Source of the DNA: Nocardia fusca NBRC 14340
Lineage (GTDB): Bacteria > Actinomycetota > Actinomycetes > Mycobacteriales > Mycobacteriaceae
Length of the DNA: 64,000 nucleotides
Assembly: GCF_001618425.1 (NCBI RefSeq)
Contig: NZ_BDCU01000016.1
Span: 1-64,000 of the forward strand
Direction of reading: 5' to 3'
The position numbers and the translations under genes were made by a program. Under the pieces are notes generated by a model that ran no database searches, was not told where the DNA came from, and worked only from the letters and a program-made list of their open reading frames with translations. Below are positions 14,878-34,760 of this stretch, one piece after another. Every line of letters starts with the position of its first letter. Position 1 is the stretch's first letter.

Positions 14878-16401
14878 TCACTGCGACGCGGGCGGGATAC
14901 TCTGCTCGTACCGGAAGACGTTGCCGGGGTCGTACTTCGCCTTGATCCTCCGCAGCCGCTCGAAACGCTGCCTCCCCCAGTAGGCGGTCTCCCACTGCTG
15001 CATTCCGACGTTCGGCACGTTGACGTAGGCGCCATCCACGTAGGGCCGTAGTGCCTGGCTGAACTCAGCTGTCCAGGCCTGGGCCTGCGAGGTCAGCGGG
15101 TTGCCGACGCCTGGTTGCGCCGAACGGGTGCCCCAGCCTGCGCCGATCTCGCCGTAGAACAGCGCGTCGCGATGCGCGAACGCCGTGCCGCCGGGGGGCT
15201 CCCTCCGGATCGCCCCACCGAAGGCATCGACGAAGTAGTTGCTCTGCTCGGTGGGAGCGTTTCGCATGAAGTCGCCGATGATGTCGATCGCCTTCTCCGG
15301 GAAAAGCTCTTTGACGAACTGCGAGAAGAACTTCCAGTTCGCGGGCTCTTGTTCGAGCGGGAGCTGGGCTCCCGCGAAGATATCGCCCCAGTTACCGACC
15401 TGCACCGTGACATCGGGCGTGCCGGCCGACAGGATCGGAGCCAGCATCTCTGTGGCCTGTGCCGCCGCCCCCTCCACAAGCCACGCGGACAGCAGGATCT
15501 GAGATTTGCGGACCTCGAGCTCCGATCCCAGACGGCTGTCGGCGGCCGGTACCGTGCGCTGCCATCCCTCGAAGATCCGGTGCAGGTCACCGAGTCCGTC
15601 CCATGTCGCCTGCACATAGGCGAGAGACGCGAGCGGATACACCTGGTAGGTGAGTTGTGTGACGATCCCGAAGTTGCCGTTTCCCGCCCCGCGCAGCGCC
15701 CAGAGCAGGTCCGAGTGGTGCTCCGAGTCCGCGTTGATCACCTCGGCGCAGTCGTGACCCGCCGGAACGACGATTTCGGCTGCCATCAGGCTGTCGCAGG
15801 CCATGCCGAGCCGGCGATTGAGGGGCCCGAGGCCACCACCGAGTGTCGCACCGCACACGCTGACGCTGCCCTCACTTCCGGTCGTGACCGCAAGGTCGTG
15901 CTTCGCGAGCGTCGTCACCGCTTCCAGCTGGGTCAGCCCGGCGCCGACCGTCACGAGGCGAGCGCCGGGGTCGATCCGGACCGACTTCAACCGGCTGACG
16001 TCGATCACGATGCCGTTGTCGACGTTCGACCAGCCTTCGAGGGCGTGGCGGCCGCTGCGCACCCGCAGCGCGACGTTGTGCTGCCGCGCCCACGTGAGTG
16101 CGTTCACCACGTCCTGGGTTTGCTGTGCGAAGACGATGGCCAGCGGATAGTGGGAAAAGAGCTGGTCCCAGCCGAGTCGCGCCTCCGTGTACGCCGCGTC
16201 ACCGGGGCGGACGATGTGGCCGGTCAGCGTCGCGGGCGGACACCCCGAGCTGTTACCCGAGTGGCCCGCGGACACAACTCCCGGGGCGCTCGTGCTCGTG
16301 GTCTCCGGGGCGTCCGCGGCCGTGAGGCCCGCAACACCGATCGCTCCGACGCCGACGGTGGCCGATGTCCTGAGCAGGTCACGGCGAGAAAGTTCGTTCA
16401 A
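14878..16401 (-). CDS. Tat-exported FAD-linked oxidase (BBE family)
   Basis: This 507-residue oxidoreductase has an N-terminal twin-arginine signal (SRRDLLRTS, then a hydrophobic Ala/Gly stretch) and is therefore probably exported folded. A PCMH-type FAD-binding domain covers roughly residues 60-260, with SGRHALEGWSN providing His119, the usual 8-alpha-histidyl FAD attachment, and CGATLGGGLGPL in the pyrophosphate loop. The C-terminus (YWGRQRFERLRRIKAKYDPGNVFRYEQSI) is the berberine-bridge-enzyme domain. The second covalent Cys of bicovalent members is not in its usual position, so a mono-covalent flavin is likely. Substrates in the family include sugars and secondary metabolites; this one is unknown. 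It may serve the nearby terpene locus, but it is separated by 500 bp and lies on the other strand. Confidence 0.88.
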   Translation of the reverse strand: MNELSRRDLLRTSATVGVGAIGVAGLTAADAPETTSTSAPGVVSAGHSGNSSGCPPATLTGHIVRPGDAAYTEARLGWDQLFSHYPLAIVFAQQTQDVVNALTWARQHNVALRVRSGRHALEGWSNVDNGIVIDVSRLKSVRIDPGARLVTVGAGLTQLEAVTTLAKHDLAVTTGSEGSVSVCGATLGGGLGPLNRRLGMACDSLMAAEIVVPAGHDCAEVINADSEHHSDLLWALRGAGNGNFGIVTQLTYQVYPLASLAYVQATWDGLGDLHRIFEGWQRTVPAADSRLGSELEVRKSQILLSAWLVEGAAAQATEMLAPILSAGTPDVTVQVGNWGDIFAGAQLPLEQEPANWKFFSQFVKELFPEKAIDIIGDFMRNAPTEQSNYFVDAFGGAIRREPPGGTAFAHRDALFYGEIGAGWGTRSAQPGVGNPLTSQAQAWTAEFSQALRPYVDGAYVNVPNVGMQQWETAYWGRQRFERLRRIKAKYDPGNVFRYEQSIPPASQ

Positions 16402-17235: not shown

Positions 17236-18627
17236 ATGGCTGAGTCACCGGTCCCACCGGCTTCGGGTGCGGTCTGGCCGGTCGGGCATGCTGTGACATT
17301 GCTGAGAGATCCGCTGGCATTTTTGTCGTCCCTGGCGAATGACGGCAGTGAGCTCGTGAAGATACGGATCGGCCCCGGGGCCGCTGTCGTGGTGTGCGAC
17401 CCGGACCTCACCGATCGAGTCCTTCGTGATGATCGCACTTTCGACAAGGGCGGCCCGCTGTTCGACACAGCGCGGAAGGTGGTGGGTGACAACGTGATCA
17501 CCTGTCCGCACCGTATGCATCGTCGGCAGCGATCGTTGATCCAGCCGACGTTCGCCCGCGCACGACTCGCGAATTACGGCCGAGCGATGACGGCCGAGGC
17601 CGATGCCATGACCGCCGCCTGGAACGACGGTGAGGTCGTGGATATGCTGGCCGAGACATTGCGCCTGGCCACACAAACTGTGATGGCGACCATGTTCTCC
17701 GGCGCACTGGCACCGCACGTCCGCGATCGAGCGTTGGCCGATGTCACGGTGGTTGTCACCGGGTTGTACCGGCAGATGCTGGCGCCGCCGCTGGTGAATC
17801 GGTTACCCACGCCCGGCAATCGCCGGTATGGGCGAGCGCACGCACGCCTTCGCGAGTTGATGGCGCACATTGTCGCTGAGCGGCGGATCGACGGCACCGA
17901 CCACGGGGACCTGGTTTCGGCCATGCTCTCGGCCCGACTCCCCGCCGAAACAGCCGCGCCCATCGACAGCGGCGGCGGCATGACCGACAGCCAGATCTGC
18001 GATCAGCTCCTGGCTTTCTTCATCGCCGGGTCGGAGACCACCGCGAGCGCGCTCGCTTGGGCGTTGCATCTGCTCGTGGCCCATCCCGAGATAGAGGAAC
18101 GGCTGCATCAGGAGACGGCCCGAGTCCTCGCCGGCGCTCCCGCCCGCTGCCGGGACCTGCCCGACCTGCCGCTGACGGGGCACATCATCACCGAAGCACT
18201 GCGGCTCTATCCACCCGGCTGGCTGTTCACCAGAACAGTCACCACCGATACTCGACTGGGCGGCTACGACCTGCCCGCCGGAACCTCTGTGGTGTACAGC
18301 CCCTATATCCTGCATCGTCGCAACGATCTCTATCGGAACCCGAATCGCTTCGATCCCGACCGATGGGACACCCCGCAACCGCCGATTCGGCGGAAGGAGT
18401 TCGTGGCATTCGGCGCCGGCCCGCGGCGCTGCCCGGGCGAGGCCTTCGCTCTCACCGAACTGTCACTGGCGCTGGCCACGATCGCCGGCCGGTGGCGGAT
18501 TCGCCATCGAGTCGGCACCCGCGCCCGTCCTGCGGTGGCGATGGCACTGCACCCCCGCGACCTGCGCATCCGCGTCCATTCCGCCAGGTGTGGCGGTGCT
18601 CTACCGTCGGCGGGAGGCCACCGATGA
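17236..18627 (+). CDS. Cytochrome P450 (terpene hydroxylase type)
   Basis: A 463-residue cytochrome P450. The oxygen-binding I-helix motif AGSETT is at 264-269, the ExxR motif at Glu320-Arg323 and the heme-thiolate loop FGAGPRRCPGE has Cys399 as the axial ligand. The sequence layout resembles actinobacterial terpene oxygenases such as pentalenene oxygenase more than the short soluble CYP105 type. It would hydroxylate or oxidise a substrate in the cytoplasm with electrons from ferredoxin partners not encoded nearby. Its stop overlaps the start of the terpene synthase (ATGA at 18624-18627), so translation is coupled and the terpene made by the next gene is the likely substrate. Confidence 0.92.
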   Translation: MAESPVPPASGAVWPVGHAVTLLRDPLAFLSSLANDGSELVKIRIGPGAAVVVCDPDLTDRVLRDDRTFDKGGPLFDTARKVVGDNVITCPHRMHRRQRSLIQPTFARARLANYGRAMTAEADAMTAAWNDGEVVDMLAETLRLATQTVMATMFSGALAPHVRDRALADVTVVVTGLYRQMLAPPLVNRLPTPGNRRYGRAHARLRELMAHIVAERRIDGTDHGDLVSAMLSARLPAETAAPIDSGGGMTDSQICDQLLAFFIAGSETTASALAWALHLLVAHPEIEERLHQETARVLAGAPARCRDLPDLPLTGHIITEALRLYPPGWLFTRTVTTDTRLGGYDLPAGTSVVYSPYILHRRNDLYRNPNRFDPDRWDTPQPPIRRKEFVAFGAGPRRCPGEAFALTELSLALATIAGRWRIRHRVGTRARPAVAMALHPRDLRIRVHSARCGGALPSAGGHR

Positions 18628-19664
18628 CGGTTTTCGAACAGCCTGCTCTGCCGGGGATCTTCTGCCCTATCGAATCCGACATTCATCCTGCGGTCGAGAC
18701 GATCGAAAACCGGTCGATCGAGTGGTTGAGGGCCGGCAAGTTCCTCGAGGATCGCCACCAGGGGCGCGCCCTGATCGCGACCAAGTCGGCCGAGTTCATG
18801 GCGAGAATGGCACCTCACGGCTGTGCCGATCGACTGCAGATCGCTTCCGATTGGGCCTATTGGGGATTCGCATTCGACGATCGCTTCGACCGTGGCCCGC
18901 TGTCGAAGGATCTCGGTGGGTTCGTGTCCTATGCCACCAGGATCGTACGCGTGCTGGAGGCGCCGGGATCGGCGTTGCTGGAGCCCGATCCGCTGGTGAG
19001 CGGCCTCCTCGATATCTCGGCACGATTCGCCGAATGTGTGACGCCGGTTCAGCACCGTCGATGGGTTCAGGCCCACCGTGCCTGGTTGTTCGGGGTCTGC
19101 GCCGAGATGAGTGCGACGACGACGCCGAGCGTGGACGAGTACCTCGCCATCCGGATCAACAACGCCGCGGGCGAGATCGTCACCGTCATCACCGAACTGG
19201 TGAACGAATACGAACCTCCGGCGGCGGAGTTGGAGCTGCCTCGGGTCCGGGCACTCACCGAGATGGCACGGGTGCTCGCGGCCCTGGACAACGACTTGCA
19301 CTCCCATCCCAAGACAGTGGCGTTGAACGAGACCAACCAACACAATCTGCTGACGGTGATCGCAGCGCGCCATGCCTGTGGGCCGGACGAGGCCATCGCA
19401 CGAGCGGTGTGGTTGCGTGACCGGATCATGTGCCGGTTTCTCGTCGCGGGCGCACAGACGAGCGGGCTGAGCACCGACACCCGTCGCTATCTCCAGGGCC
19501 TGCGCCATGTGGTCCGCGGCAATCTCGATTGGGCGCTCGACGTCGAACGTTACAGAGTCGACGGTCGATCCGTGGCCGACTGTTTCACCATCAACGACTC
19601 CCCTACCGATTCCTCACCCGATCCCCCGGGGATTTCGTCGATCAACTGGTGGTGGCAGGTATGA
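18624..19664 (+). CDS. Class I terpene synthase with altered NSE motif
   Basis: A 346-residue class I terpene cyclase, the usual bacterial size. The Asp-rich motif is DDRFD (Asp85, Asp86, Asp89). The second metal-binding motif reads NDLHSHPKT: Asn223 and Ser227 are present, but the position normally held by Glu is Thr231. The RY pair near the C-terminus is Arg309-Tyr310. It would ionise a prenyl diphosphate, probably farnesyl or geranylgeranyl diphosphate, and cyclise it. The start ATG at 18624 has GGGAGG ten bases upstream and overlaps the P450 stop. The missing Glu could weaken Mg binding or indicate a divergent clade; the product cannot be predicted. Confidence 0.9.
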   Translation: MTVFEQPALPGIFCPIESDIHPAVETIENRSIEWLRAGKFLEDRHQGRALIATKSAEFMARMAPHGCADRLQIASDWAYWGFAFDDRFDRGPLSKDLGGFVSYATRIVRVLEAPGSALLEPDPLVSGLLDISARFAECVTPVQHRRWVQAHRAWLFGVCAEMSATTTPSVDEYLAIRINNAAGEIVTVITELVNEYEPPAAELELPRVRALTEMARVLAALDNDLHSHPKTVALNETNQHNLLTVIAARHACGPDEAIARAVWLRDRIMCRFLVAGAQTSGLSTDTRRYLQGLRHVVRGNLDWALDVERYRVDGRSVADCFTINDSPTDSSPDPPGISSINWWWQV

Positions 19665-22334: not shown

Positions 22335-22546
22335 CCGGAGGTGGAAGGCCGCTCTGTCAGGCGGGATTGCGCCCGGGCGCCGAGTGTCGTGAATATGCTC
22401 CGATTCCGTCGCAAGCCGCGCCGCCCCCGACCGGTTCGGTCGCATATGCCTTGCGCGGACGATGATTTCGCCTTCCTACTACCGGTTCGTTGGTAACATG
22501 CGTGCGGCGAACCGGCCACTACGTCGGCGGAAGACAAGGGGCGTTG

Positions 22547-23152
22547 ATGGAAGTGGAGGACGTCCACCATGCGTACGGCAGGCGGTCGGTGTTGCGCGGT
22601 ATCGACATCGTGTTGCCCGCCGGGGCGCTGGTAGGAATCGTCGGCGAGAACGGCGTCGGCAAGTCGACGTTGTTGAAGGTGCTCTCCGGAGAGTTGCGAC
22701 CGGACCGCGGGGTGGTCCGGCACCGTGGACGGTTCGGTTACTGCCCCCAACAGGTGGTTCTGAACGATGCGTTCACAGTTCGCCAGCACCTGGAATTCTT
22801 CGCCGCGGCCTACGCCGTCCCGGACCTGCGGCGGGCCGAGCGAACCATGGAAATCCTGCGCTTCTCCGAGTATGCCGGTGAGCGAGTCGCCACGCTGAGC
22901 GGCGGCACCCGGCAGAAGCTCAACCTCACGCTCGCGGTGATGCACGATCCGCAGGTCCTGTTACTCGACGAGCCGTATCAGGGTTTCGACTGGGAAACGT
23001 ATCTGCGTTTCTGGGATCTGGTCGCGGAATTCCGTGACACCGGCCGATCGGTGCTGGTCGTCTCGCATCTGGCACACGACACCGACAGGCTGGATCAAGT
23101 GTGGCGGTTGCACGAGGGCGTTCTCCGGAGCAGACAGGAGACAGCCGGATGA
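22547..23152 (+). CDS. ABC transporter ATP-binding protein
   Basis: A 201-residue ABC ATPase with Walker A GENGVGKST, signature LSGGTRQKL, Walker B VLLLDEPYQG and a switch His in VVSHLAHDTD. It is short and resembles the ATPases of two-component drug or metabolite exporters. The ATG at 22547 precedes the family's MEVEDVHHAYG start; the open frame extends 19 codons upstream without homology. Its stop overlaps the permease start (ATGA at 23149-23152). Placed between the terpene regulator and the prenyltransferase-cyclase gene, it probably energises export of the terpene product or provides self-resistance. Confidence 0.9.
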   Translation: MEVEDVHHAYGRRSVLRGIDIVLPAGALVGIVGENGVGKSTLLKVLSGELRPDRGVVRHRGRFGYCPQQVVLNDAFTVRQHLEFFAAAYAVPDLRRAERTMEILRFSEYAGERVATLSGGTRQKLNLTLAVMHDPQVLLLDEPYQGFDWETYLRFWDLVAEFRDTGRSVLVVSHLAHDTDRLDQVWRLHEGVLRSRQETAG

Positions 23153-23985: not shown

Positions 23986-24023
23986 CTGTCCCGGACTGTC
24001 CAGTGGTGGACAGCCCGGGACAG
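23986..24023. terminator. Bidirectional hairpin terminator
   Basis: CTGTCCCGG-A-CTGTCCA (23986-24002) pairs with TGGACAG-C-CCGGGACAG (24007-24023): 16 of 17 positions pair around a four-base loop. It lies between the convergent stops of the permease (23982) and the fusion enzyme (24053) and could end transcription from both sides. Confidence 0.75.
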
Positions 24024-24052: not shown

Positions 24053-26071
24053 CTACAGCACGGCAGGAGCCGGCTCGGCGGCCCGGTAGTAGACCTCACG
24101 GCGCAAGCGTTCCAGGTCGGGCGTCGCAGAAGTCGCGGAATTCGACGTCGGCGTGTACCTATCGCTCTCGCGCCCCCACAGCCCCATTCTCGCCATACTC
24201 CCGTACATCTCCGCGTAGTCCTTCCCCCGGCCCGACAGGCCGGGCAGCACGCGGAAGAGGGTGGGGAGGTAGCGGATCGCTGCCTCGAACTGGGCGCGAT
24301 GCTCGGCGACCTGCCGACGCACCTGCTCGACGGCTTCGGCGCGGGTGCAGCCCGTCTCGTGACGGACCGCCCTGACCAGGTTGTAGGGGACTCGATCGGC
24401 CTCGTCCTGCGCCAACCCGACCAGGTCGTTCTCCACGAAGGTCACCCAGAAGCCGAGTTCCTCGAGACGGCGGATGACGGGGTGGTTGCGAAGTTTCGCG
24501 GGCAGTTCCCGGTCGTGATACATCTCCATGACGGCGATGGCGGTTTCCAGCCCACTGGTCGACATCCGCAGTGGCAGGTAGTCGGCCGTGGAAGGAACAT
24601 AGCCGTTGATGCGATGGTGGGCTTCGCGTTCGGCGGCTTCGAACCACTCCTCGATGCCGTCGAGGAACCGCTCCTGCCAGCGGGCGGTCCGGCCCTCGCG
24701 CAGGCGCGGCCACAAGCTGGCCCACGCCGTCGGAATCGCGCCCGGCCGCCACGGTGCCTCCGGATCCTGGCGCAGTGTCGCCACCATGCCACGCCTCAGC
24801 GCGGTCACATCTTCCGGATCGGTCAGCTGCGGATCCTCGAAGAGGTCGTCCCACATGAGGACCAGCACGGCCATGCCGTAGGCGGTCTGTTCGCGGGACA
24901 CGTCCGCCGCCGGCGCCAGAATTCGTGCCCGGCTCCGGATCGCTCCGGTCCACCGGTGGTAGTCGGCCTCGGCCGCAGAGGTAGCGAGGCCGGTATCGAC
25001 CAACCAGCTGGTCAACCATTCCGCGACCCGCGGTGGAAGGTCGCCGACCGGAGCCTCGGGTACCCGCGTGAGGGGTTGGGAGACCGCGAGGTGAGAAGGG
25101 CGCCGGTCGAGAATCGACCGGATGTAAGCGGTCATCGCCCGGCGGGCGTCCGAGGCAACGGACAGCTCGGCGAGCCCACCGGCGGCCTTGTCCAGGAATT
25201 CGTCGGCCACCGCCCGGGCTTCGTCGACCGCGCCGGAGGCGATGACCAGCTCCCGGGCCTGTGCGGCTTGCTCCCCCGTCATTCTGCCGCGCAGCAGGCG
25301 GGCCAGGTCCCCGTCGTGGGCGGCCGCGCGGATCACCGGAAGTGTGTAGATGCCCTCGGGCAGATCCGCATTGACGGGCTTGCCCATTTCCTCGGCGGTC
25401 GAGGTCAGGTCGAGGATGTCGTCATACAGCTGGTAGGCCAGTCCGAAGTGTCGGCCGAACAGCGCCAACGCCTCTTCTTCGTCCGCGGAGCGGCCGGCCT
25501 GCATCGCGCCCACCCGGCACGCCAGCGACAACACCGCCGCCGTCTTACCGTCGATCGTGTCCAGGTAGGACTGCTCGCTGCGGGAGGGCACGTAGAGGTC
25601 GGCGGCCTCGATCACCATGCCCGCGCACATCTGCTCGCCCGCGATCGTCGCCGCGAGAACCTCGCGCGGGCCGAGTTCGGCCAGCATGCGCAGGCCCGAG
25701 AACGTCACCGCGTCCCCACCCAATACGGCCATATGCGATCCCCACACCGCGTTGGCGCTGGGGCGACCTCGGCGCTGGTCCGCGTGGTCGACGACATCGT
25801 CGTGGTAGAGCGACCCCAGATGCATCATCTCCACGGCGGCAGCGGCGCGCACCGCCCGGTCGGCCGCCGGCGTCTCGGGATCGGTGAGCAGGTAGTACGA
25901 CAGTAGGGTCAGAGTCGGGCGGACCAGACGGCGCGAGGTGCCCGGCCCTTCGTCTGTGAGTGCGGTCAGTTCCGGTCTGTTCTCCAGTCGAACAGGTCCG
26001 AGAACGTCGCGGACGCGGTCCAGGTCCGCCTCCAGATGCGGGAAGACAGCCGAGTCGATTTCACGTGGCAC
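24053..26071 (-). CDS. Prenyltransferase-terpene cyclase fusion enzyme
   Basis: A 672-residue fusion of two class I isoprenoid domains. Residues 1-330 are a trans-polyprenyl diphosphate synthase with both Asp motifs, DDVVD (91-95) and DDILD (217-221), plus RRGRPSANAVWG and DGKTAAVLSLACRVGA. Residues about 345-645 are a class I terpene cyclase: DDLFED (408-413), the sensor Arg502 in LPLRMSTSGLE, the NSE-type NDLVGLAQD (Asn548, Gly552, Asp556) and the Arg638-Tyr639 pair. The residues before the first DDxxD are small (Gly86, Ser87), which favours long products of C20 or more. The protein could build its own prenyl diphosphate and cyclise it. The GTG start at 26071 has AGGAG eight bases upstream. 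Fungal fusions have the opposite domain order. Confidence 0.93.
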   Translation of the reverse strand: MPREIDSAVFPHLEADLDRVRDVLGPVRLENRPELTALTDEGPGTSRRLVRPTLTLLSYYLLTDPETPAADRAVRAAAAVEMMHLGSLYHDDVVDHADQRRGRPSANAVWGSHMAVLGGDAVTFSGLRMLAELGPREVLAATIAGEQMCAGMVIEAADLYVPSRSEQSYLDTIDGKTAAVLSLACRVGAMQAGRSADEEEALALFGRHFGLAYQLYDDILDLTSTAEEMGKPVNADLPEGIYTLPVIRAAAHDGDLARLLRGRMTGEQAAQARELVIASGAVDEARAVADEFLDKAAGGLAELSVASDARRAMTAYIRSILDRRPSHLAVSQPLTRVPEAPVGDLPPRVAEWLTSWLVDTGLATSAAEADYHRWTGAIRSRARILAPAADVSREQTAYGMAVLVLMWDDLFEDPQLTDPEDVTALRRGMVATLRQDPEAPWRPGAIPTAWASLWPRLREGRTARWQERFLDGIEEWFEAAEREAHHRINGYVPSTADYLPLRMSTSGLETAIAVMEMYHDRELPAKLRNHPVIRRLEELGFWVTFVENDLVGLAQDEADRVPYNLVRAVRHETGCTRAEAVEQVRRQVAEHRAQFEAAIRYLPTLFRVLPGLSGRGKDYAEMYGSMARMGLWGRESDRYTPTSNSATSATPDLERLRREVYYRAAEPAPAVL

Positions 26072-26395: not shown

Positions 26396-27394
26396 TCAGC
26401 CGGCAGTGGAGGCGCGCTCGACCAGATATGGGCGGAAACAGATGTGCTCCGGTCGCGCTGCCCCCTCTGCCGCCGCGGCGACCAGCAGGTCGACGGCGAC
26501 GGAGCCGATCTCGGCCCGAGGTTGACGAATCGAGGTGAGCGGGACGACCGCGGACTGAGCGAAGTCGATATCGTCGTAGCCGACCAGCGCGACGTCGCCG
26601 GGTACCTCGACGCCGTGCAGTGTGAGGGCCTGCAGCACACCGATCGCGAGCAGGTCGTTGACGCAGAACACGGCGTCGGGCCGGTCACCGGGGGGCCGGG
26701 CGGCGATACGCTCGCCGGCGGCGCGACCGGCGAGCACGGTCATGGCCGGGGTGTCGACGACAGTGAGCGTGACGCCCGGATGTTCGGCCGCGGCGCGTCG
26801 GGCGCCGGCCCGGCGATCCGCCACCTGCGTCAGCGAGGCCGGACCTCCGATCACTGCGATGTGCCGGCGGCCGCCGGCACAGAGGTGTCGCACGGCCAGC
26901 TCGCCGCCGGCGATATCGTCCACGGCGACCGAGGAGAACGGCGTGCCCTGCCCGTCACGGTCCACCAGCACCACCGGCACACCGCGGTTGTGCAAGGCGA
27001 CGAGCCGGCGCTGATCCTCCCCGGACGGCGAGATGAGGAGCCCGAAAACCCGCTGTTCGTCGAAAGTTTCGAGGTAGCGACGTTCGCGGTGCGGATCGTC
27101 GTCGCTGGAGCCCAGCAGCACGACGAGGTCGTGTTCGGCGGCGCGCTGCTGAGCGGCGCGGGCCACGTCGGAGAAGAAGGGGTTGCCGATATCGAGCACC
27201 ACCAGGCCGACGCACCGGGAGCGGCCCGCCTTGAGCTGACGAGCCGCATCGTTGCGGACGAAACCCAGCCGATCGATGGCGGCGAGAACCCGGTCGACGG
27301 TGGCGGGTGCGACCTTGTCGGGCGCGTTAAGCACATTGGAGACGGTGCCGACCGAGACCGACGCCGCAGCGGCGACCTCCCGCATGCTCACCAC
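26396..27394 (-). CDS. LacI family regulator of rhamnose operon
   Basis: A 332-residue LacI/GalR repressor. The N-terminal helix-turn-helix reads REVAAAASVSVGTVSNVLN with the hinge helix APATVDRVLAAIDRLGF; the sugar-binding periplasmic-protein-like domain follows (GLVVLDIGNPFFSD; VVLVDRDGQG; DAVFCVNDLLAIGV). I prefer the GTG at 27394, which has AGGAGG eleven bases upstream, over the in-frame ATG at 27385. The gene is last in the rhamnose operon, 46 bases after the lactate-oxidising enzyme. The perfect LacI-type palindrome at 35183-35196, ahead of the first operon gene, is the obvious target, with L-rhamnose or a derivative as inducer (inference). Confidence 0.9.
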   Translation of the reverse strand: MVSMREVAAAASVSVGTVSNVLNAPDKVAPATVDRVLAAIDRLGFVRNDAARQLKAGRSRCVGLVVLDIGNPFFSDVARAAQQRAAEHDLVVLLGSSDDDPHRERRYLETFDEQRVFGLLISPSGEDQRRLVALHNRGVPVVLVDRDGQGTPFSSVAVDDIAGGELAVRHLCAGGRRHIAVIGGPASLTQVADRRAGARRAAAEHPGVTLTVVDTPAMTVLAGRAAGERIAARPPGDRPDAVFCVNDLLAIGVLQALTLHGVEVPGDVALVGYDDIDFAQSAVVPLTSIRQPRAEIGSVAVDLLVAAAAEGAARPEHICFRPYLVERASTAG

Positions 27395-27440
27395 CGGCGC
27401 CGGCACCTCCTCTGTCCGCGCAGGCCTCGCCGCGGCCTGC

Positions 27441-28688
27441 TCACACTCGATCTTGGCCGGGTATCGGGCGCGGGGCAAGCCTGGTCAGCTGGGTCACGTG
27501 CTGTGGGGTCAGTTCCTCCAGGCAGGTGACGCCGAGCAACCGCATGGTGCGCTCGACCTGTCCGGTGAGAATTTCCACCGCTCGGTTCACCCCGGCTTCG
27601 CCGCCGGCCATCAGGCCGTAGAGGTAGGCGCGGCCGATGAGGGTGAAGCGGGCGCCGAGCGCTATCGAGGCCACGATATCGGCGCCGGACATGATGCCGG
27701 TGTCGAGGATGATCTCGGTGTCACGCCCGAGTTCCCGGGCGACCTCGGGCAGCAGGTGGAACGGTACGGGTGCCCGGTCGAGTTGGCGGCCGCCGTGGTT
27801 GGAGAGCACGAGTCCGTCGACGCCGGTGTCCACCACCGCCCGGGCGTCGGTGAGGGTCTGGATGCCCTTGACGACCACCTTGCCGGGCCACTGGTCGCGG
27901 ATCCACGCCAGGTCCTCGAAATTCACCGTCGGGTCGAACATGGAGTCGAGCAGCTCTGCCACGGTCCCCGACCAGCGATCCAGCGAGGCGAAGGCCAACG
28001 GTTCGGTGGTGAGGAAGTCGATCCACCAGCGCGGCCGGGGCAGCGCGTCGAGCACGGTGGAGGGGGTGAGTGCGGGTGGGATCGACATTCCGTTGCGGGT
28101 GTCGCGCAGCCGGGCGCCGGCCACCGGGACGTCCACCGTCACCAGCAGGGTGTCGAAGCCCGCGGCGGCGGCGCGCTCGACCAGCGCCATGGAGCGGTCC
28201 CGGTCCTTCCACATGTAGAGCTGGAACCAGTTACGGCCGTGCGGGTTCGCCGCGGCCACATCCTCGATGGAAGCGGTGCCCATGGTGGAGAGCGAGAACG
28301 GGATGCCGGTGCGGCCCGCCACCCGGGCGCCGGCGTATTCGCCCTCCGTCTGCATCATCCGGGTGAAGCCGGTGGGGGCGATACCGAACGGTAGCGAAAC
28401 CGGTGCGCCGAGGACTTCCCAGCCGGTGGTGACCTTGGAGACGTCGCGCAGGATCGCCGGGTGGAATTCGATATCGCGGAACGCCTGCCGCGCGCGGTCC
28501 AGGGAGATCTCACCTTCCGCGGCGCCGTCGGTGTAGTCGAAGGCGGCACGCGGGGTACGCCGTTTGGCGATACGGCGTAGGTCCTCGATGGTGAGCGCCG
28601 CGTCCAGCCGCCGCGCAACGCCGACGCGCGGCTTCTTGAACTGCATCAGCGGCGCGAGATCACGAGGTTTGGGTAGCTGTCGTTTCAT
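27441..28688 (-). CDS. lldD: FMN-dependent L-lactate dehydrogenase/oxidase
   Basis: A 415-residue FMN-dependent alpha-hydroxy-acid oxidising enzyme, the family of L-lactate dehydrogenase, glycolate oxidase and lactate monooxygenase. Seen motifs are [11 protein letters not shown] near the N-terminus, the [18 protein letters not shown] loop, [18 protein letters not shown] and the active-site [10 protein letters not shown] with the catalytic His, then GRAYLYGL. It would oxidise L-lactate to pyruvate. Its ATG overlaps the kinase stop (ATGA), so it is translationally coupled to the rhamnose genes. That fits the pathway: the aldolase/dehydrogenase upstream should release L-lactate from L-rhamnose, which this enzyme feeds into central metabolism. 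Confidence 0.88.
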
Positions 28689-30139
28689 CAGCCTGCTTTC
28701 CTCACGGGTTCGGTGCGCGGCTCGTAGCGCCGCGGCGGGAATGCGGCGGTCACCTCGGCGCGCAGCGCGTCCACATCGCCGTGCAGCAGGCCGTGGGTGC
28801 GGGCCTGCACCAGTATGTTTCCGAGCGAGGTCGCCTCGACGGGGCCGGCCAGTACCGGCACACCGGCGTGCTCGGCCAGCAACCGGCACAGCAGCCGGTT
28901 GCGGGCGCCACCGCCCACCAGGTGGATCGTGCGCACCGGGATACCGGTCAACTCCTGAGCGGTCCGCACTCCGGCGGCGAAGGCGGCGGCGAGGCTCTCC
29001 ACAATGGCACGCACCATCGGGACGGGGCCGTCCGGCGCCGGCAGTGCCCGGACCGTGTACCAGTCGGCGATCCGGGCGGGCATATCGCCGGGGGTGAGGA
29101 ACACCGGGTCGTCCACGTCGAATACGGCCGCCGGAGCGGGAGCATCGGCGGCCGCGGCCAGCAATCGGGCGAGGTCCACTGTGTTGTCGGTGCGCTGCCA
29201 GTGCCGCACCGACTCACTGAGCAGCCACAAACCCATGACATTGCGCAGGTAGCGGGTGCGCCCGTCGAGTCCGGCCTCGTTGGTGAAGTTGGCCTCCCGA
29301 CCTGCCGCCGAAACCAGCGGCGCGGGCAGTTCCACTCCGGCCAGCCCCCAGGTGCCGCAGGAGATATAGGCGGCGGTGTCCGGCGCCATCGGTACCGCGG
29401 CCACGGCGGACGCCGTGTCGTGCGAGGCGACGGTGCTCAATGTCAACGCCCGGTCCAGCCCGAAAGCCGCCGCTACTCCGGGTAGTACCGGGCCCAGCGT
29501 CGTGCCGGGTTCGACCACGTCCGGGAACAGGTTCGGCAGACTCAGCCGGGTCCGCACCTCGTCGTCCCAGCGGCCGTCCAGCCCGAGCAATCCGGTGGTG
29601 GAGGCGTTGGTGCGCTCGGTGACCCGGACACCGGTCAGCCAGTAGCCGAGCAGGTCCGGGATCAGCAACGCCTCGTCCGCGGGTTCCAGTGCGCCCGAGA
29701 GTTTCTCGGTGGCGAGCTGGTAGATCGTGGTGAAGGGCAGGAATTGCAGGCCGTTCCGCCGGTACAGCTCGTCCGGGTCCACGACCGCGTGCACTGCCGC
29801 CACACCGGCGGCCGAACGGGTGTCGCGGTAGTGGTGGGGCAGTCCGAGCGGCGCGCCGTGCCGGAGCAGACCGTAATCTATTGCCCACGAGTCGATCCCG
29901 GCGCCCAGCAGGCCCGGTTCCAACCGGGCGGCCTCGGCCAGGCCGCGTCCGATATGCCGGTACAGACCGGGAAGATCCCAGTGCAGGGCCTCTCGATCGC
30001 CGTGCCACAGCGGCAGTGGGTCGTTGGCGAACCGGGCGACCTGCCGCATGGCGATGCGGCCGGGACCGACCCGGGCCAGCATGACCCGGCCGCTGGTGGC
30101 ACCGAGATCGACAGCGGCGACCGCGCCGGTGGCGCTCAT
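28688..30139 (-). CDS. rhaB: Rhamnulokinase
   Basis: A 483-residue FGGY-type sugar kinase that phosphorylates L-rhamnulose to L-rhamnulose 1-phosphate. Visible motifs are the phosphate loop [14 protein letters not shown], the [10 protein letters not shown] substrate segment, the [12 protein letters not shown] and [11 protein letters not shown] loops of the second domain, and [17 protein letters not shown] with [12 protein letters not shown] near the end. The length fits the family. The ATG at 30139 overlaps the stop of the preceding aldolase/dehydrogenase gene by four bases, and its own stop overlaps the next start, so the three genes are tightly coupled. Confidence 0.92.
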
Positions 30140-32172
30140 CGCAGGAACGCCGCGGCGACCCCGGCGTCGACCGGCACGTGCAGCCCGGTGGTGTGCGAGA
30201 AATCCGGACTGCACAGCGCGAACGCGGCATTGGCGATGTGTTCGGGCAGCACCTCCCGCTTGAGCAGGGTGCGCTGGGCGTAGAAGGCGCCCAGTTCGGA
30301 CTCCTCCACGCCGTACACGGCCGCGCGCTGCGCACCCCAGCCGCCGGCGAAGATTCCGGAGCCGCGCACCACACCGTCGGGGTTGATGCCGTTCACCTTC
30401 ACGCCGTGCTCACCGAGTTCGGCGGCCAGCAGCCGCACCTGGTGCGCCTGATCGGCCTTGGCGGCGGAGTAGGCGATATTGTTCGGCCCGGCGAAGACCG
30501 AGTTCTTCGACGAGATGTAGAGGATGTCGCCACCCATGCGCTGATCGATCAGCGCCCGCGCCGCCGCCTTGGACACCAGGAACGAACCCTTGGCCATGAC
30601 GTCGTGCTGCAGGTCCCAGTCCGCCTCGGTGGTCTCCAGCAGCGATTTCGACAACGAGAGACCGGCGTTGTTGACCACCAGGTCCAGGCCGCCGAACGCG
30701 AGCACCGCCGCGTCCACGGCGGCACGGACCTGTCCCGCATCGGTGACATCGGCGCCGATACCGACCGCCACGTCGGCCGAGCCGATCTCGGCGGCGACCT
30801 CGGCGGCCTTCGCTCCGTCGCGGTCCGCGACCACCACGCAGGCGCCCTCGGCGGCCAGCCGCTGCGCGATGGCCTTGCCGATACCGGAAGCCGCACCAGT
30901 GACCAGTGCGATCCGGGTGGCGAGCGGCTTGGGCTTCGGGCGCCGCGCCAGCTTGGCCTCCTCCAGTGCCCAGTACTCGATGCGGAATTTCTCCGACTCG
31001 TCGATCGGCTGGTACCGGGACACCGACTCGGCGCCTCGCATGACATTGATCGCGTTCAGGTAGAACTCACCGGCCACCCGCGCGGTCTGCTTGTCCGCAC
31101 CGTAGCTGAACATGCCGACGCCCGGGATCAACACAATGGCCGGGTCGGCGCCACGCATCGCCGGCGAGTCCGGGGCGGCGTGCCGCTCGTAGTAGGCCCG
31201 GTACTCCGCCCGGTAGGTCTCGTGCAGCTCGGTGAGCCGCTGCGTGCACTGCTCGATCGAGGCGTCGGCGGGCAGGTCCAGCACCAGCGGCGCCACCTTG
31301 GTGCGCAGGAAGTGGTCCGGACAGCTGGTGCCCAGTGCGGCCAGTCGCGGATGCTCGGCGCGGGAAAGGAACTCGAGCACCGGCGCGGTATCGGTGAAAT
31401 GCCCGACCTGGCGGCGGTCGGTGGAGGCCAGACCGCGCAGGAACGGCGCCAGCGCCGCCGCCTTCGCCCGGCGCTGCGACTCCGGCAGCGCCTCGTATCC
31501 GGGCAGTACCGGTCCGAACGGTTCCGGCTTCCCGTTCGCCGCCAGGTATTGCTCGATGGTGTCGATGATCTCCCGCGAGTGCGCCTCGGCCTCGTCGGAG
31601 GTATCGCCCCACGCGGTGATGCCGTGCCCGCCGAGGATCGTGCCGACGGCCTGCGGGTTACGTCGCCGGATCTCGGCGATATCGAGGCCGAGCTGGAAAC
31701 CGGGGCGCCGCCAGGGCACCCACACCACCCGGTCGCCGAAGATCTTCTCGGTCAACTCCGGGCCGTCGACGGCGGTGGCCAGCGCGATCCCGGAGTCGGG
31801 GTGCAGATGGTCCACGTGCGCGGCCTCCACCAGACCGTGCATGGCGGTGTCGATGGAGGGGGCGGCGCCGCCGCGGCCGTGCAGGGTGTAGTCGAACGCG
31901 GCGACCATCTCGTCTTCACGGTCCACACCCGGGTAGACGCCGGTCAGGGCGCGCAGGCGGTCCAGCCGCAGCACCGCCAGGCCCGCCTCGGTGAGTGTGC
32001 CGAGGTCGCCGCCGGAGCCCTTGACCCACATCAGCTCGACGGGCTCGCCGGTCACCGGGTCGGTGTCGGTGCCCTTGGCGGAGGTGTTGCCGCCCGCGTA
32101 GTTGGTGTTCTTCGGGTCGGCGCCGAGCCGGTTGGAGCGGGCGACGAGTTCCGCGACCGTGGGGTGGGTCAT
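30136..32172 (-). CDS. rhaD: Bifunctional rhamnulose-1-phosphate aldolase/lactaldehyde dehydrogenase
   Basis: A 678-residue fusion. Residues 1-420 are a class II aldolase domain with the metal-binding HVDHLHPDSG motif and LGGHGITAWGD; it would split L-rhamnulose 1-phosphate into dihydroxyacetone phosphate and L-lactaldehyde. Residues about 430-678 are a short-chain dehydrogenase with VTGAASGIGKAIA and the catalytic YSAAK; it would oxidise lactaldehyde to L-lactate using NAD. This is the RhaDE-type architecture known from actinobacteria, rhizobia and Bacillus. The ATG at 32172 is preceded by a purine-rich AAAGAGGAAA. The fusion, instead of separate RhaD and AldA, explains why a lactate-oxidising gene is in the operon. 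Confidence 0.92.
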   Translation of the reverse strand: MTHPTVAELVARSNRLGADPKNTNYAGGNTSAKGTDTDPVTGEPVELMWVKGSGGDLGTLTEAGLAVLRLDRLRALTGVYPGVDREDEMVAAFDYTLHGRGGAAPSIDTAMHGLVEAAHVDHLHPDSGIALATAVDGPELTEKIFGDRVVWVPWRRPGFQLGLDIAEIRRRNPQAVGTILGGHGITAWGDTSDEAEAHSREIIDTIEQYLAANGKPEPFGPVLPGYEALPESQRRAKAAALAPFLRGLASTDRRQVGHFTDTAPVLEFLSRAEHPRLAALGTSCPDHFLRTKVAPLVLDLPADASIEQCTQRLTELHETYRAEYRAYYERHAAPDSPAMRGADPAIVLIPGVGMFSYGADKQTARVAGEFYLNAINVMRGAESVSRYQPIDESEKFRIEYWALEEAKLARRPKPKPLATRIALVTGAASGIGKAIAQRLAAEGACVVVADRDGAKAAEVAAEIGSADVAVGIGADVTDAGQVRAAVDAAVLAFGGLDLVVNNAGLSLSKSLLETTEADWDLQHDVMAKGSFLVSKAAARALIDQRMGGDILYISSKNSVFAGPNNIAYSAAKADQAHQVRLLAAELGEHGVKVNGINPDGVVRGSGIFAGGWGAQRAAVYGVEESELGAFYAQRTLLKREVLPEHIANAAFALCSPDFSHTTGLHVPVDAGVAAAFLR

Positions 32173-32206
32173 GACAGATATTTCCTCTTTCTGGTGGTCG
32201 GTGTGG

Positions 32207-33394
32207 TCAGGCGCCCCAGGAGGCGGCGGGCCCGGTGCGTTCGGCGGCGAGCCGCTGCTGCTGTCCGGAGCGGGCGTAGGCGGCCATCGGGTCCTCCGGC
32301 AGGCCGCGCTCGGCGCGCCGCGCCGCCAGTCGCGGCCGGACATCGGTGTAGAAGGCGTCCATGAACACGGCGTGGGCGCCGAGCACATCCCCGGACTCCT
32401 GCGCGGCAGTAAGTGCGTCGAGATCGACCAGCGCGGCCCGCGCCGTCATCTCCTCGACATTGAGCACCGAGCGGAGCTGGCCGGGGATCTTGTCCTCGAT
32501 GTTGTGGCACTGGTCCAGCATCAGGGCCACCCCGTTCTCCGGCGCCAGCCCGCCGCCGCGCAGCACCTCGAACAGGATGCGGAACAGCTGGAACGGGTCC
32601 GCGGCGCCGACGATGAGATCGTCGTCGGCGTAGAAACGGGAGTTGAAGTCGAAGGACCCCAGCTTCCGCAGCCGCAGCAACTGCGCCACGATGAACTCGA
32701 TATTGGTGCCCGGCGCGTGATGGCCGGTGTCCAGGCAGACCACCGCCCGCTCCCCCAGCGCGCTGACCTGGGCGTAGGCGGTACCCCAGTCCGGCACATC
32801 GGTCATGTACATGGCCGGTTCGAAGAATTTGTACTCGAGCACCAGCCGCTGGTTCGGGCCGACGTGTTCGTAGATGGCCGACAGCGATTCCGCGAGCCGG
32901 TCCTGACGGCCCCGGATATCGCCCTGCCCCGGATAGTTGGTGCCGTCGGCGAGCCAGATCTTCAGATCCCGGGAGCCGGTCTGCGCCATGACCTCCAGGC
33001 AGGCCAGGTGATGGTCGATCGCCTTCTGGCGGATTCGCTTGTCGGTGTGGGTCAGGCTGCCGAACTTGTAGTCGTCGTCCTGGAAGGTGTTGGAGTTGAT
33101 CGTGCCCAGCCGCACGCCGAGGTCTGCGGCGTATCGGCCGAGTGCGGCATAGTCGTCGACCGTGTCCCACGGGATGTGCAACGCCACGGCCGGCGCGAGA
33201 CCGGTGAGCCGGTGCACGGTGGCCGCGTCGGCGATCTTCTCCTGCACCGTGCGGGCCGTCCCCGGGGTCCCGAACACTTTGAACCGGGTACCGGAATTAC
33301 CGAAGGCCCAGGAAGGCAGTTCGATGGCGAGGGATTCCAGGGCGGTGTCGAGGGACACGGGCGATATTCCTTTCGCAACGGACAGGTTCGACAT
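32207..33394 (-). CDS. rhaI: L-rhamnose isomerase (RhaI type)
   Basis: A 395-residue TIM-barrel sugar isomerase converting L-rhamnose to L-rhamnulose. It resembles the shorter RhaI class seen in Pseudomonas stutzeri, actinobacteria and rhizobia, rather than E. coli RhaA. Conserved elements are ALHIPWDTVDD, GTINSNTFQDDDYKFGSLTH, KIWLADGTNYPGQGD, the metal-ligand segments LEYKFFEPAMY, CLDTGHHAPGTNIE and FDFNSRFYADDDL. It begins one base after the permease stop and ends 34 bases before the aldolase gene, so it is in the middle of the operon. Confidence 0.92.
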   Translation of the reverse strand: MSNLSVAKGISPVSLDTALESLAIELPSWAFGNSGTRFKVFGTPGTARTVQEKIADAATVHRLTGLAPAVALHIPWDTVDDYAALGRYAADLGVRLGTINSNTFQDDDYKFGSLTHTDKRIRQKAIDHHLACLEVMAQTGSRDLKIWLADGTNYPGQGDIRGRQDRLAESLSAIYEHVGPNQRLVLEYKFFEPAMYMTDVPDWGTAYAQVSALGERAVVCLDTGHHAPGTNIEFIVAQLLRLRKLGSFDFNSRFYADDDLIVGAADPFQLFRILFEVLRGGGLAPENGVALMLDQCHNIEDKIPGQLRSVLNVEEMTARAALVDLDALTAAQESGDVLGAHAVFMDAFYTDVRPRLAARRAERGLPEDPMAAYARSGQQQRLAAERTGPAASWGA

Positions 33395-33395
33395 C

Positions 33396-34760
33396 TCAGT
33401 GGCCTCCCACCGGAGCGCCCTCGAGACCGCGGCCGAGCCCCGTATCGGGAAGCACCCCGGCGCCCTCGGATCCGGTGACCGGGCTGCCGTAGCGTTCCTC
33501 CTCGATCTCGCGCAGCGTCTTGCCCTGCGTGCGCGGGGCGAAGACCGCGCCGATCGCCAGGGCCACGGTGAGCAGGCCGATCAGCAGCAGACCGACCACG
33601 GTGAGCCCGGTGGCGGCCAGCATGGTGGGGAAGAAGTAACTCAGCAGGCCGGTCGCCGAGCGCACCACGAAGAACATGAAACCCTGCGCACTGGCGCGGT
33701 AGGGAGTGGCGAAGAGTTCGCTGGTCCACAGGCTGTAGAAAGCCTGCGCACCGATACCGCTGGAGACGCCCCACAACACCGCGAAGATCAGCAGCGTCGG
33801 CATCCCGGCGTCGGTGAAGAACACCAGTACGCACCAGGCCAGCACACCGAGCGCCGCGCCGATCACATACAGCAGTCGCTGGGAGATCCGGTCGGCGTAG
33901 GCCATGAACCCGAAGTAGGTCGCCGCGACGGTGCAGCCCCACACCAGCACCTGCAGCAGATTCTGCGCAACCGCGCTGTGTACCCCCGCGCTGTCGTAGA
34001 CCCGCGGCATGAAGATACCGGCCTGACCGGCGACGGTGTTCCAGAAACCGTAGATGCCCATCAGCACGAGCAACGCGGTGATATTGATCCGGCGGGAGAA
34101 GAGCCCACGCAACCCCTGCCCGCCGGTGGCCGACCGCACCGGCGCCGCCGCATCGGATCCCGCTTCGTCCTGCCAGATCTTGGATTCGGCCAGACCCTGC
34201 CGGATCCACCAGACCACCGCCGCCACCACGAACAGGTGCAGGAAGATCAGTCTCGACCCGAGCAACCCCATCGGCGCCAGCACGGCGGCCAGCGCGAAAC
34301 CGACCAACGGCCCGACCGACCAGGCCAGTTGCGCAGTGCCGACATGGCGGGCACGGTCGGTGGTGGGCGCCTGCTCGGCGATATAGGTCCAGGAGGCCGG
34401 CACCCCCGCACCCACCGCGATACCGGTGATCACGAACGCGGCCAGCAGCATCCCGAAGTTCATCGCGAACGTCGCGAGCAGCACGCCCGCCATGTACACC
34501 AGCAGGTCGTAGGTGTAGATCGCCTTACGTCCGAAGCGGTCGCACAGCGGCCCGCCGATACCTGCGCCGATCGCCGCACCGAAGGCGTTGGCACTCAACG
34601 CGGCCAGCAATCCGACGGCGAAATTGCTGATGCCGAACGCGTCCTGCCAGAAGGTCAGGCTCGTGGCGATGGCGATGATGGAACCCGCCTCGATGTAATT
34701 GGACATCGCGACGGATATCGTCGCTTTCCACCCGGTGGTGGTTCGTGCGCCTACCTTCAT
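33396..34760 (-). CDS. MFS sugar transporter, probable rhamnose permease
   Basis: A 454-residue major facilitator protein with 12 predicted membrane helices. The signature loop between helices 2 and 3 reads GGPLCDRFGRKAIY (the DRxGRK motif) and the sugar-porter-like PASWTYIAEQAP follows helix 4. A central cytoplasmic loop is near residue 210 (ESKIWQDEAGSDAAAP). It is the only transporter in the rhamnose operon and therefore the likely L-rhamnose importer; substrate specificity is inferred from context. The ATG at 34760 has AACCCCGAGGAAG just upstream. Confidence 0.9.
   Translation of the reverse strand: MKVGARTTTGWKATISVAMSNYIEAGSIIAIATSLTFWQDAFGISNFAVGLLAALSANAFGAAIGAGIGGPLCDRFGRKAIYTYDLLVYMAGVLLATFAMNFGMLLAAFVITGIAVGAGVPASWTYIAEQAPTTDRARHVGTAQLAWSVGPLVGFALAAVLAPMGLLGSRLIFLHLFVVAAVVWWIRQGLAESKIWQDEAGSDAAAPVRSATGGQGLRGLFSRRINITALLVLMGIYGFWNTVAGQAGIFMPRVYDSAGVHSAVAQNLLQVLVWGCTVAATYFGFMAYADRISQRLLYVIGAALGVLAWCVLVFFTDAGMPTLLIFAVLWGVSSGIGAQAFYSLWTSELFATPYRASAQGFMFFVVRSATGLLSYFFPTMLAATGLTVVGLLLIGLLTVALAIGAVFAPRTQGKTLREIEEERYGSPVTGSEGAGVLPDTGLGRGLEGAPVGGH

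Follow-up and report, generated by a model that had tools for sequence, protein, structure and literature searches.

Proteins that join a prenyl diphosphate synthase and a class I terpene cyclase in one chain are known from the fungal PTTS family, with the fusicoccadiene synthase PaFS and macrophomene synthase as examples, in which the cyclase is N-terminal and the prenyl synthase C-terminal. Here we analyse a gene of this kind with the opposite order, found in Nocardia fusca NBRC 14340. The whole stretch of DNA studied, called the window, is 64,000 nucleotides long (contig NZ_BDCU01000016.1, positions 1 to 64,000 of the forward strand, assembly GCF_001618425.1), and the fused gene lies at 24053-26071 on its reverse strand. 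The initial annotation of this DNA had already described the domain order as the reverse of the fungal one; the synthase-first order is seen directly in the gene. Further differences from the fungal enzymes are the actinobacterial host and the ATP-binding cassette (ABC) transporter of the ABC-2 type that adjoins the gene. The opposite order points to a fusion separate from that of the fungal PTTS, an argument made from domain order.

The PTTS family has been described as 'occurring only in fungi' (PNAS 2021, PMC8307374, in the available text). The available text of another study (PMC10509563) describes the bifunctional kind for fungi and holds no fused bacterial prenyl synthase-cyclase; its authors chose fifteen enzymes of actinobacteria out of a tree with over 4000 sequences. 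We found no bacterial fusion of this kind in the open-access literature; subscription journals were mostly outside this search, and a prior mention is possible. The conserved ABC-2 partner is new here.

The two halves also have stand-alone counterparts. The N-terminal half has synthases of the GrcC1/Rv0562 and HepT types among its best matches in sequence and in fold, but they carry no cyclase. Pentalenene, isoafricanol and avermitilol synthases match the cyclase half over most of its length; they too are stand-alone enzymes, the fusion scores far below their NCBIfam cut-offs, and it has Asp where the NSE motif has Glu. None of the 25 NCBIfam models shown reaches its cut-off on the fusion protein. 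The best of them for the synthase half is f2_encap_cargo4, a family 2 encapsulin cargo model. Prenyltransferases and terpene cyclases are both listed as family 2 encapsulin cargo, and the cargo proteins are said to have large unannotated terminal regions (both from the available text of PMC8346489), which the fusion lacks. Its identification as such a cargo (NF041169) was rejected, with 179.2 bits against a cut-off of 450.

The fused gene

The gene and its parts, all on the reverse strand, are as follows.

24053..26071, (-), fused gene, predicted N-terminal trans-prenyl diphosphate synthase and C-terminal class I terpene cyclase, 672 aa, GTG start
25289..25927, (-), prenyl synthase domain PF00348, residues 49-261, with DDVVD 91-95 and DDILD 217-221; Pfam match and motifs
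25043..25099, (-), linker, residues 325-343, predicted local distance difference test (pLDDT) below 50, fast-evolving and among the least conserved stretches
24296..24871, (-), class I terpene cyclase domain PF19086, residues 401-592, with DDLFED 408-413, R502 and NDxxGxxxD 548-556; Pfam match and motifs

The gene is one open reading frame (ORF) without interruption, with AGGAG 7 bases 5' of the GTG start. In the Pfam search the N-terminal half belongs to PF00348 (polyprenyl synthetase) with E 2.2e-50 and 171.6 bits against a cut-off of 27, and both DDxxD motifs are present. The C-terminal half matches PF19086 (terpene synthase family 2) with E 8e-36 and 124.1 bits against 23.7, and has the DDxx(x)D motif, the Arg sensor and the RY pair of a class I cyclase. 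An AlphaFold2 model built on 31 chosen alignment rows (mean pLDDT 81, predicted template modelling score 0.74) shows two all-helical domains joined by the linker.

A complete prenyl synthase fused 5' of a complete class I cyclase was what the initial annotation had proposed, and the reading frame and both Pfam domains confirm it. The motif positions given there are right (DDVVD 91-95, DDILD 217-221, DDLFED 408-413, Arg502, NDLVGLAQD 548-556 and Arg638-Tyr639), and Gly86, Ser87 and the RRGRPSANA loop are also where it had placed them. Two separate genes in the reference assemblies would have spoken against the fusion, but the orthologues in named Nocardia assemblies are likewise single ORFs.

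Distribution and origin of the fusion

A protein database search gave 178 homologues, and all 120 listed ones hold both Pfam domains; by its sequence the fusion is therefore neither a chance product nor a frame artefact. The 120 align over 86-100% of the window protein, so they have the same domain order. With a distant member as query, 96 proteins were matched, 88 with both domains and 8 with the synthase domain but without the cyclase domain. The earlier remark that few bacterial cases exist does not hold, as the family comprises well over a hundred database proteins and reaches four copies in one sampled Nocardia genome.

At E 1e-60 the fusion was found in 34 of 148 sampled Nocardia genomes, at 50 places, with up to four per genome. 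It also occurs in 10 of 15 Microbispora-type genomes, with Microtetraspora proteins among the matches as well, and in 2 of 295 Streptomyces genomes, both genera being assigned from the names of the protein matches. In a class-wide sample of 394 genomes it was confined to the window's genome and three Microbispora-type genomes. A second copy in the window's genome, on C62, is intact and 69% identical. A third copy, G000:C53:84446-86125 (L005, L069), is damaged within its cyclase half, which suggests gain and loss of fusion copies.

For each half a quick tree was made from 30 chosen fusions; branches beyond the fusion clade are long. The cyclase halves fall into a single clade when set against 15 other cyclases (SH-aLRT 100), and so do the synthase halves against 20 other synthases (SH-aLRT 100) after two truncated copies had been left out. 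The first synthase tree, with 38 stand-alone synthases where the later one used 20, seemed to need three changes; it contained two apparently truncated database copies, P0151 and P0152, and without them there is one clade. Both halves thus trace, as far as these trees can tell, to one fusion clade. In the class-wide sample of 394 genomes, no stand-alone close relative of the synthase half turned up outside the fusions at E 1e-45. Among the non-fusion rows of the synthase tree P0153 is the nearest; in this protein a prenyl synthase follows a UPF0047 domain.

The adjacent ABC transporter

The strongest functional clue is the ABC transporter next door, which the initial annotation had not raised. 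It faces the fusion, with a short junction between the two stop codons.

22490..23152, (+), ABC transporter ATPase, conserved partner, PF00005
23101..23982, (+), ABC-2 type permease, conserved partner, PF12698/PF01061 below the Pfam cut-off; 70 bases between the permease end and the fusion end
23986..24023, no strand assigned, inverted repeat with a 9 bp + 7 bp stem between the permease and fusion stop codons

The ATPase matches PF00005 with 93.4 bits against a cut-off of 25. Genes within 9 kb of the fusions were clustered for 50 loci (27 named, 22 others and the window), 48 of them with a called fusion, using a simple GC-frame gene caller, which missed the stand-alone cyclase of the window. 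Some of these loci duplicate a genome, and the genome counts come from separate genome searches. The ATPase was found in 34 loci and the permease in 33; apart from second fusions (7), no other neighbour cluster exceeded 4 loci.

Permease and fusion are each present in 34 of the 148 Nocardia genomes, and 33 genomes have both; in all 33 at least one fusion lies within 3 kb of a permease match (Fisher p 1e-30, related genomes not being independent). Counted by matches, 38 of the 50 Nocardia fusions have a permease match at 3 kb or less, in convergent (32), co-directional (5) or divergent (1) orientation. This count uses 50 of 51 fusion rows, omitting the second piece of the damaged C53 copy, and 37 of 38 permease rows, omitting the second piece of G085:C20. 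The pairing extends to other genera. In every one of the 10 Microbispora-type genomes with a fusion, the genes for ATPase, permease and fusion follow one another in the same direction, with 57-87 bases between the permease and fusion matches and a permease 40-43% identical, and both Streptomyces fusion genomes have the convergent order (permease 67-68% identical). Kinship explains the pairing less easily outside Nocardia. In the four genomes L075-L078 one fusion runs with the ATPase and permease while a second faces them, and at L077 there is a four-base overlap between the fusion and the ATPase ORF as called. The divergence of the permease correlates with that of the fusion over 29 loci (r 0.74, Mantel p 0.0005), a correlation that vertical descent would equally produce.

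A hairpin lies between the two convergent stop codons. The window junction folds with -44.8 kcal/mol for 86 nt (z -3.75), and 1 of 200 shuffles was as good. A single hairpin of at least 10 pairs is found at 26 of 27 distinct junctions, the exception being L012, which is shortened by the ORF call and was omitted from the alignment of the other 26. In this alignment 7 pairs are retained, and in 3 of these both sides have changed, although the covariation term is only -0.05. There is no T run after the window hairpin. It is probably a shared two-way terminator for permease and fusion.

The transporter family away from the fusion

The permease family is larger than the fusion family; a database search gave 418 matches, and the 120 listed are, where named, mostly from Nocardia and Streptomyces. 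In genome G100, which has the permease but no fusion, the transporter pair (permease 80% and ATPase 88% identical) has as neighbours a cis-prenyltransferase (PF01255) and, as a gene of its own, a class I cyclase (PF19086). This cyclase occurs in 3 of the 148 Nocardia genomes, each time behind a cis-prenyltransferase, which is 89% identical in the other two. The gene pairs, cis-prenyltransferase first, are at L130:11718-13520 (+), L131:5872-7669 (+) and L142:729-2526 (+), with six bases between the two genes in L130. In G039 (L131) the pair faces this permease, and a fusion lies on the other side of the transporter. In G088 it is far from the full transporter; just upstream, within the 4 kb examined, there is a 138-residue ATPase match (55%) without a permease.

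The permease family is present in 8 of 51 Streptomyces genomes. All eight non-fusion Streptomyces transporter places were searched with eight tblastn queries, and terpene genes adjoin the transporter at four of them (L159, L160, L163 and L164). L159:9781-11610 (-) and L160:9544-11370 (+) are ORFs of about 610 aa beside the ABC pair, in which a squalene/phytoene-synthase-like domain is followed by a cis-prenyltransferase domain; from these predicted domains they are a second, unrelated fused synthase-cyclase-like architecture. In L163:5862-11357 a trans-prenyl synthase and a UbiA-family protein lie upstream of ATPase and permease, all in one direction, and a squalene-hopene-cyclase-like gene faces them. 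L164 agrees with it in synthase match and layout, and the UbiA-like and hopene-cyclase-like ORFs of L164 are assigned solely by likeness to L163; the two loci are close relatives and were counted as one event. A P450 gene stands next to the transporter pair at L161.

Taken case by case rather than against a formal background rate, these arrangements support the idea that the products handled by the transporter come from a dedicated prenyl synthase plus a cyclase of whatever fold. A wider proposal, which we put forward tentatively and hold to be possible rather than probable, is that Actinobacteria have a modular terpene export in which one ABC-2 family serves interchangeable, self-sufficient synthase/cyclase sets. 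The sets would be the fusion of trans-synthase and class I cyclase, the cis-prenyltransferase with a class I cyclase, the fusion of a phytoene-synthase-like domain and a cis-prenyltransferase, and the trans-synthase with UbiA and a hopene-cyclase-like protein. The reverse-order fusion would then be the Nocardia form, making and exporting a cyclic terpene of C20 or larger whose kind is not known from bacteria.

Proposed function and alternative explanations

We consider it probable that the synthase half makes an all-trans prenyl diphosphate, likely C20 or longer, that the cyclase half cyclises it and that the ABC-2 transporter likely exports the product. In this scheme the synthase half would extend dimethylallyl diphosphate with isopentenyl diphosphate, and the intermediate would pass to the cyclase half from the synthase half rather than from the pool of the cell. 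The cyclase half would then ionise and close the chain, and the transporter would move the cyclic product across the membrane, its direction and cargo being presumed. The activities are all predicted from the parts list, the motifs, their conservation and the neighbourhood, which can be read from the sequences. Some observations weigh against this scheme.

For the transporter, the alternative is a general or immunity pump that hitch-hikes with the locus and does not export this terpene. The permease stays below both Pfam cut-offs (PF12698 25.7 against 31.6, PF01061 22.7 against 26.9), and the ATPase resembles many families, drrA among them. Twelve of the 50 Nocardia fusion matches, including C62 and the damaged C53 copy of the window's genome, have no permease match at 3 kb or less; G068 has a fusion and no permease match, and G052:C19, one of the 38 paired matches, has a permease fragment only. 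The tblastn queries gave no match to a prenyl synthase or cyclase at four of the eight non-fusion Streptomyces places, L158, L165 and the short contigs L161 and L162. Against a passenger pump stand its adjacency to the fusion in 33 of 33 Nocardia genomes that have both, the conservation of this pairing in three genera and two main orientations, and the presence of the family beside unrelated prenyl-synthase/cyclase sets; we regard this explanation as doubtful.

The second alternative is that the domains are tethered and uncoupled, so that the synthase half feeds the pool of the cell while the cyclase half takes a common C15 or C20 diphosphate and makes a simple sesqui- or diterpene from it. 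Most relatives of the cyclase half that have a name are C15 enzymes, which speaks for a shorter chain. Its best sequence match in the PDB is pentalenene synthase (E 1.5e-22), avermitilol synthase was also matched, and the NCBIfam scores are 82.7 bits for isoafricanol synthase and 67.3 bits for pentalenene synthase. The genome also has other prenyl synthases, with 8 PF00348 matches, 3 of them fusions.

The relatives of the synthase half point to longer products. Its nearest matches by sequence and fold are HepT, Rv0562/GrcC1 and further enzymes of medium to long chain length, and the top five PDB matches of the model in Foldseek are heptaprenyl, solanesyl and another polyprenyl synthase; chains titled as geranylgeranyl diphosphate (GGPP) or farnesyl synthases are also among the matches. 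The stand-alone synthase L060 (C47) of the window's genome joins the branch next to the fusions in the tree and is flanked by an M48 peptidase, which we liken to the grcC1-htpX arrangement of mycobacteria. A product of C20 or longer is therefore likely, as judged from relatedness.

The rules behind the chain-length assignment are nevertheless weak. The initial annotation had taken Gly86 and Ser87 as a sign of a long product. Across the 151 aligned fusions, position -5 before the first DDxxD is Gly in 125, Ala in 24 and Ser in 2, and position -4 is Ser in 140, Ala in 10 and Thr in 1. These residues are insufficient alone, since Rv0562, with Ala at -5, gave GGPP only in assays and Rv0989c, with Gly at -5, gave geranyl diphosphate, and another determinant must exist according to the authors (available text of PMC6214179). 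For Rv0562, PDB titles name a C45 synthase as well as a GGPP synthase. The RRGRPSANA loop had been called IspB-like; RRGxPSAN is common to Rv0562 and is no IspB signature. The 'three floors' model of chain length, which requires a template alignment, reaches 80% accuracy for bacteria according to its authors, with failures on long-chain enzymes (available text of PMC9409350). Against uncoupled domains stands the conservation of the synthase half, which is kept in all 151 aligned fusions with the DDxxD motifs intact save one Gly at D95, and the transporter family adjoins dedicated prenyl synthases elsewhere too. We find a cyclase that draws on the common pool unlikely.

The conservation alignment comprised 151 fusions, the window gene and 150 database proteins, of which 112 were from the Nocardia set, 14 from the Streptomyces set, 24 of the Microbispora type and 1 other. 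Ten residues are invariant (D91, D92, D217, D218, D221, D408, D409, N548, D549 and D556). D95 and R502 are each conserved in 150, with Gly and Lys as the single exceptions, R638 in 149 with two gaps, and Y639 in 123; position 413 is Asp in 132 and Glu in 19. The canonical motif NDxx(S/T)xxxE thus keeps its N and D in every member and has Asp as its last residue, Asp556, in every member. At the Ser place, 552, there is Gly in 96, as in the window protein, Thr in 28 and Ser in 27. The deviation at Asp556 and Gly552, noticed in the initial annotation, is real, yet it is a trait of the family and not peculiar to this protein, with Asp556 fixed and position 552 mixed.

A cyclase without the usual Glu of the NSE motif is a point against the proposed chemistry. 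Together with Gly552 in 96 members it could mean that the cyclase half has lost its chemistry and now acts as a regulatory or scaffold domain attached to a prenyl synthase, but this is very improbable, as the other metal and diphosphate ligands are kept, the ratio of nonsynonymous to synonymous substitution rates (dN/dS) of the cyclase half is 0.11-0.18 against L006-L009, and Asp556 is itself invariant, as expected of a ligand. For the whole gene dN/dS is 0.17-0.20 against four close orthologues, and the linker is fast-evolving. The fusion family is, on these estimates, under purifying selection with an unusual but fixed metal motif.

Other genes in the window and contig

A cytochrome P450 gene (best NCBIfam match pentalenene oxygenase, below the cut-off) and a stand-alone cyclase of the spiroviolene type lie at 17236-19661 (+).

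18525-19661, (+), stand-alone class I cyclase, PF19086; best PDB match 'SVS' variants, SVS being presumably spiroviolene synthase

Both this cyclase and the fusion are class I enzymes of PF19086, but the former is a separate gene beside the P450. N. testacea and N. rhamnosiphila, from which phomopsene synthases are known (available text of PMC7065159), have orthologues 88-91% identical to it, and it is probably the orthologue of those synthases. Phomopsene synthase activity probably belongs to the stand-alone cyclase and not to the fusion. The fusion was considered as the phomopsene synthase of the related species and found unlikely, the stand-alone cyclase and P450 being common to those species. 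Another PF19086 cyclase, G000:C16:69974-70585 (-), is about 44 kb from the fusion on the same contig, just outside the window.

At 14878-16401 (-) there is a berberine-bridge-type flavin adenine dinucleotide (FAD) oxidase with a twin-arginine-like start by eye. An oxidase about 30% identical to it is near the fusion in 10 of 10 Microbispora-type loci (L100-L102 and L147-L153). As a conserved pathway partner it was rejected; in a comparison of 70 loci it is, among those of Nocardia, strong only in L021 (86%) and weak in L028, L029 and L078. Beside the fusion, at 26396-34760 (-), are a LacI regulator, a flavin mononucleotide-dependent dehydrogenase and, by eye, genes like those of rhamnose catabolism. 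The regulator and the next downstream cluster are common only to the nearest relatives L006-L008, and were set aside as local neighbours.

Implications

A large bacterial family with the opposite order makes it possible to compare domain order, substrate transfer and chain-length control between two apparently separate inventions. To our knowledge, little is known on how bacteria move lipophilic terpenes out of the cell, and the conserved transporter gives a testable handle on this export. It may also serve as a search key for terpene pathways, and has already led to three other prenyl-synthase/cyclase architectures, including a second fused kind.

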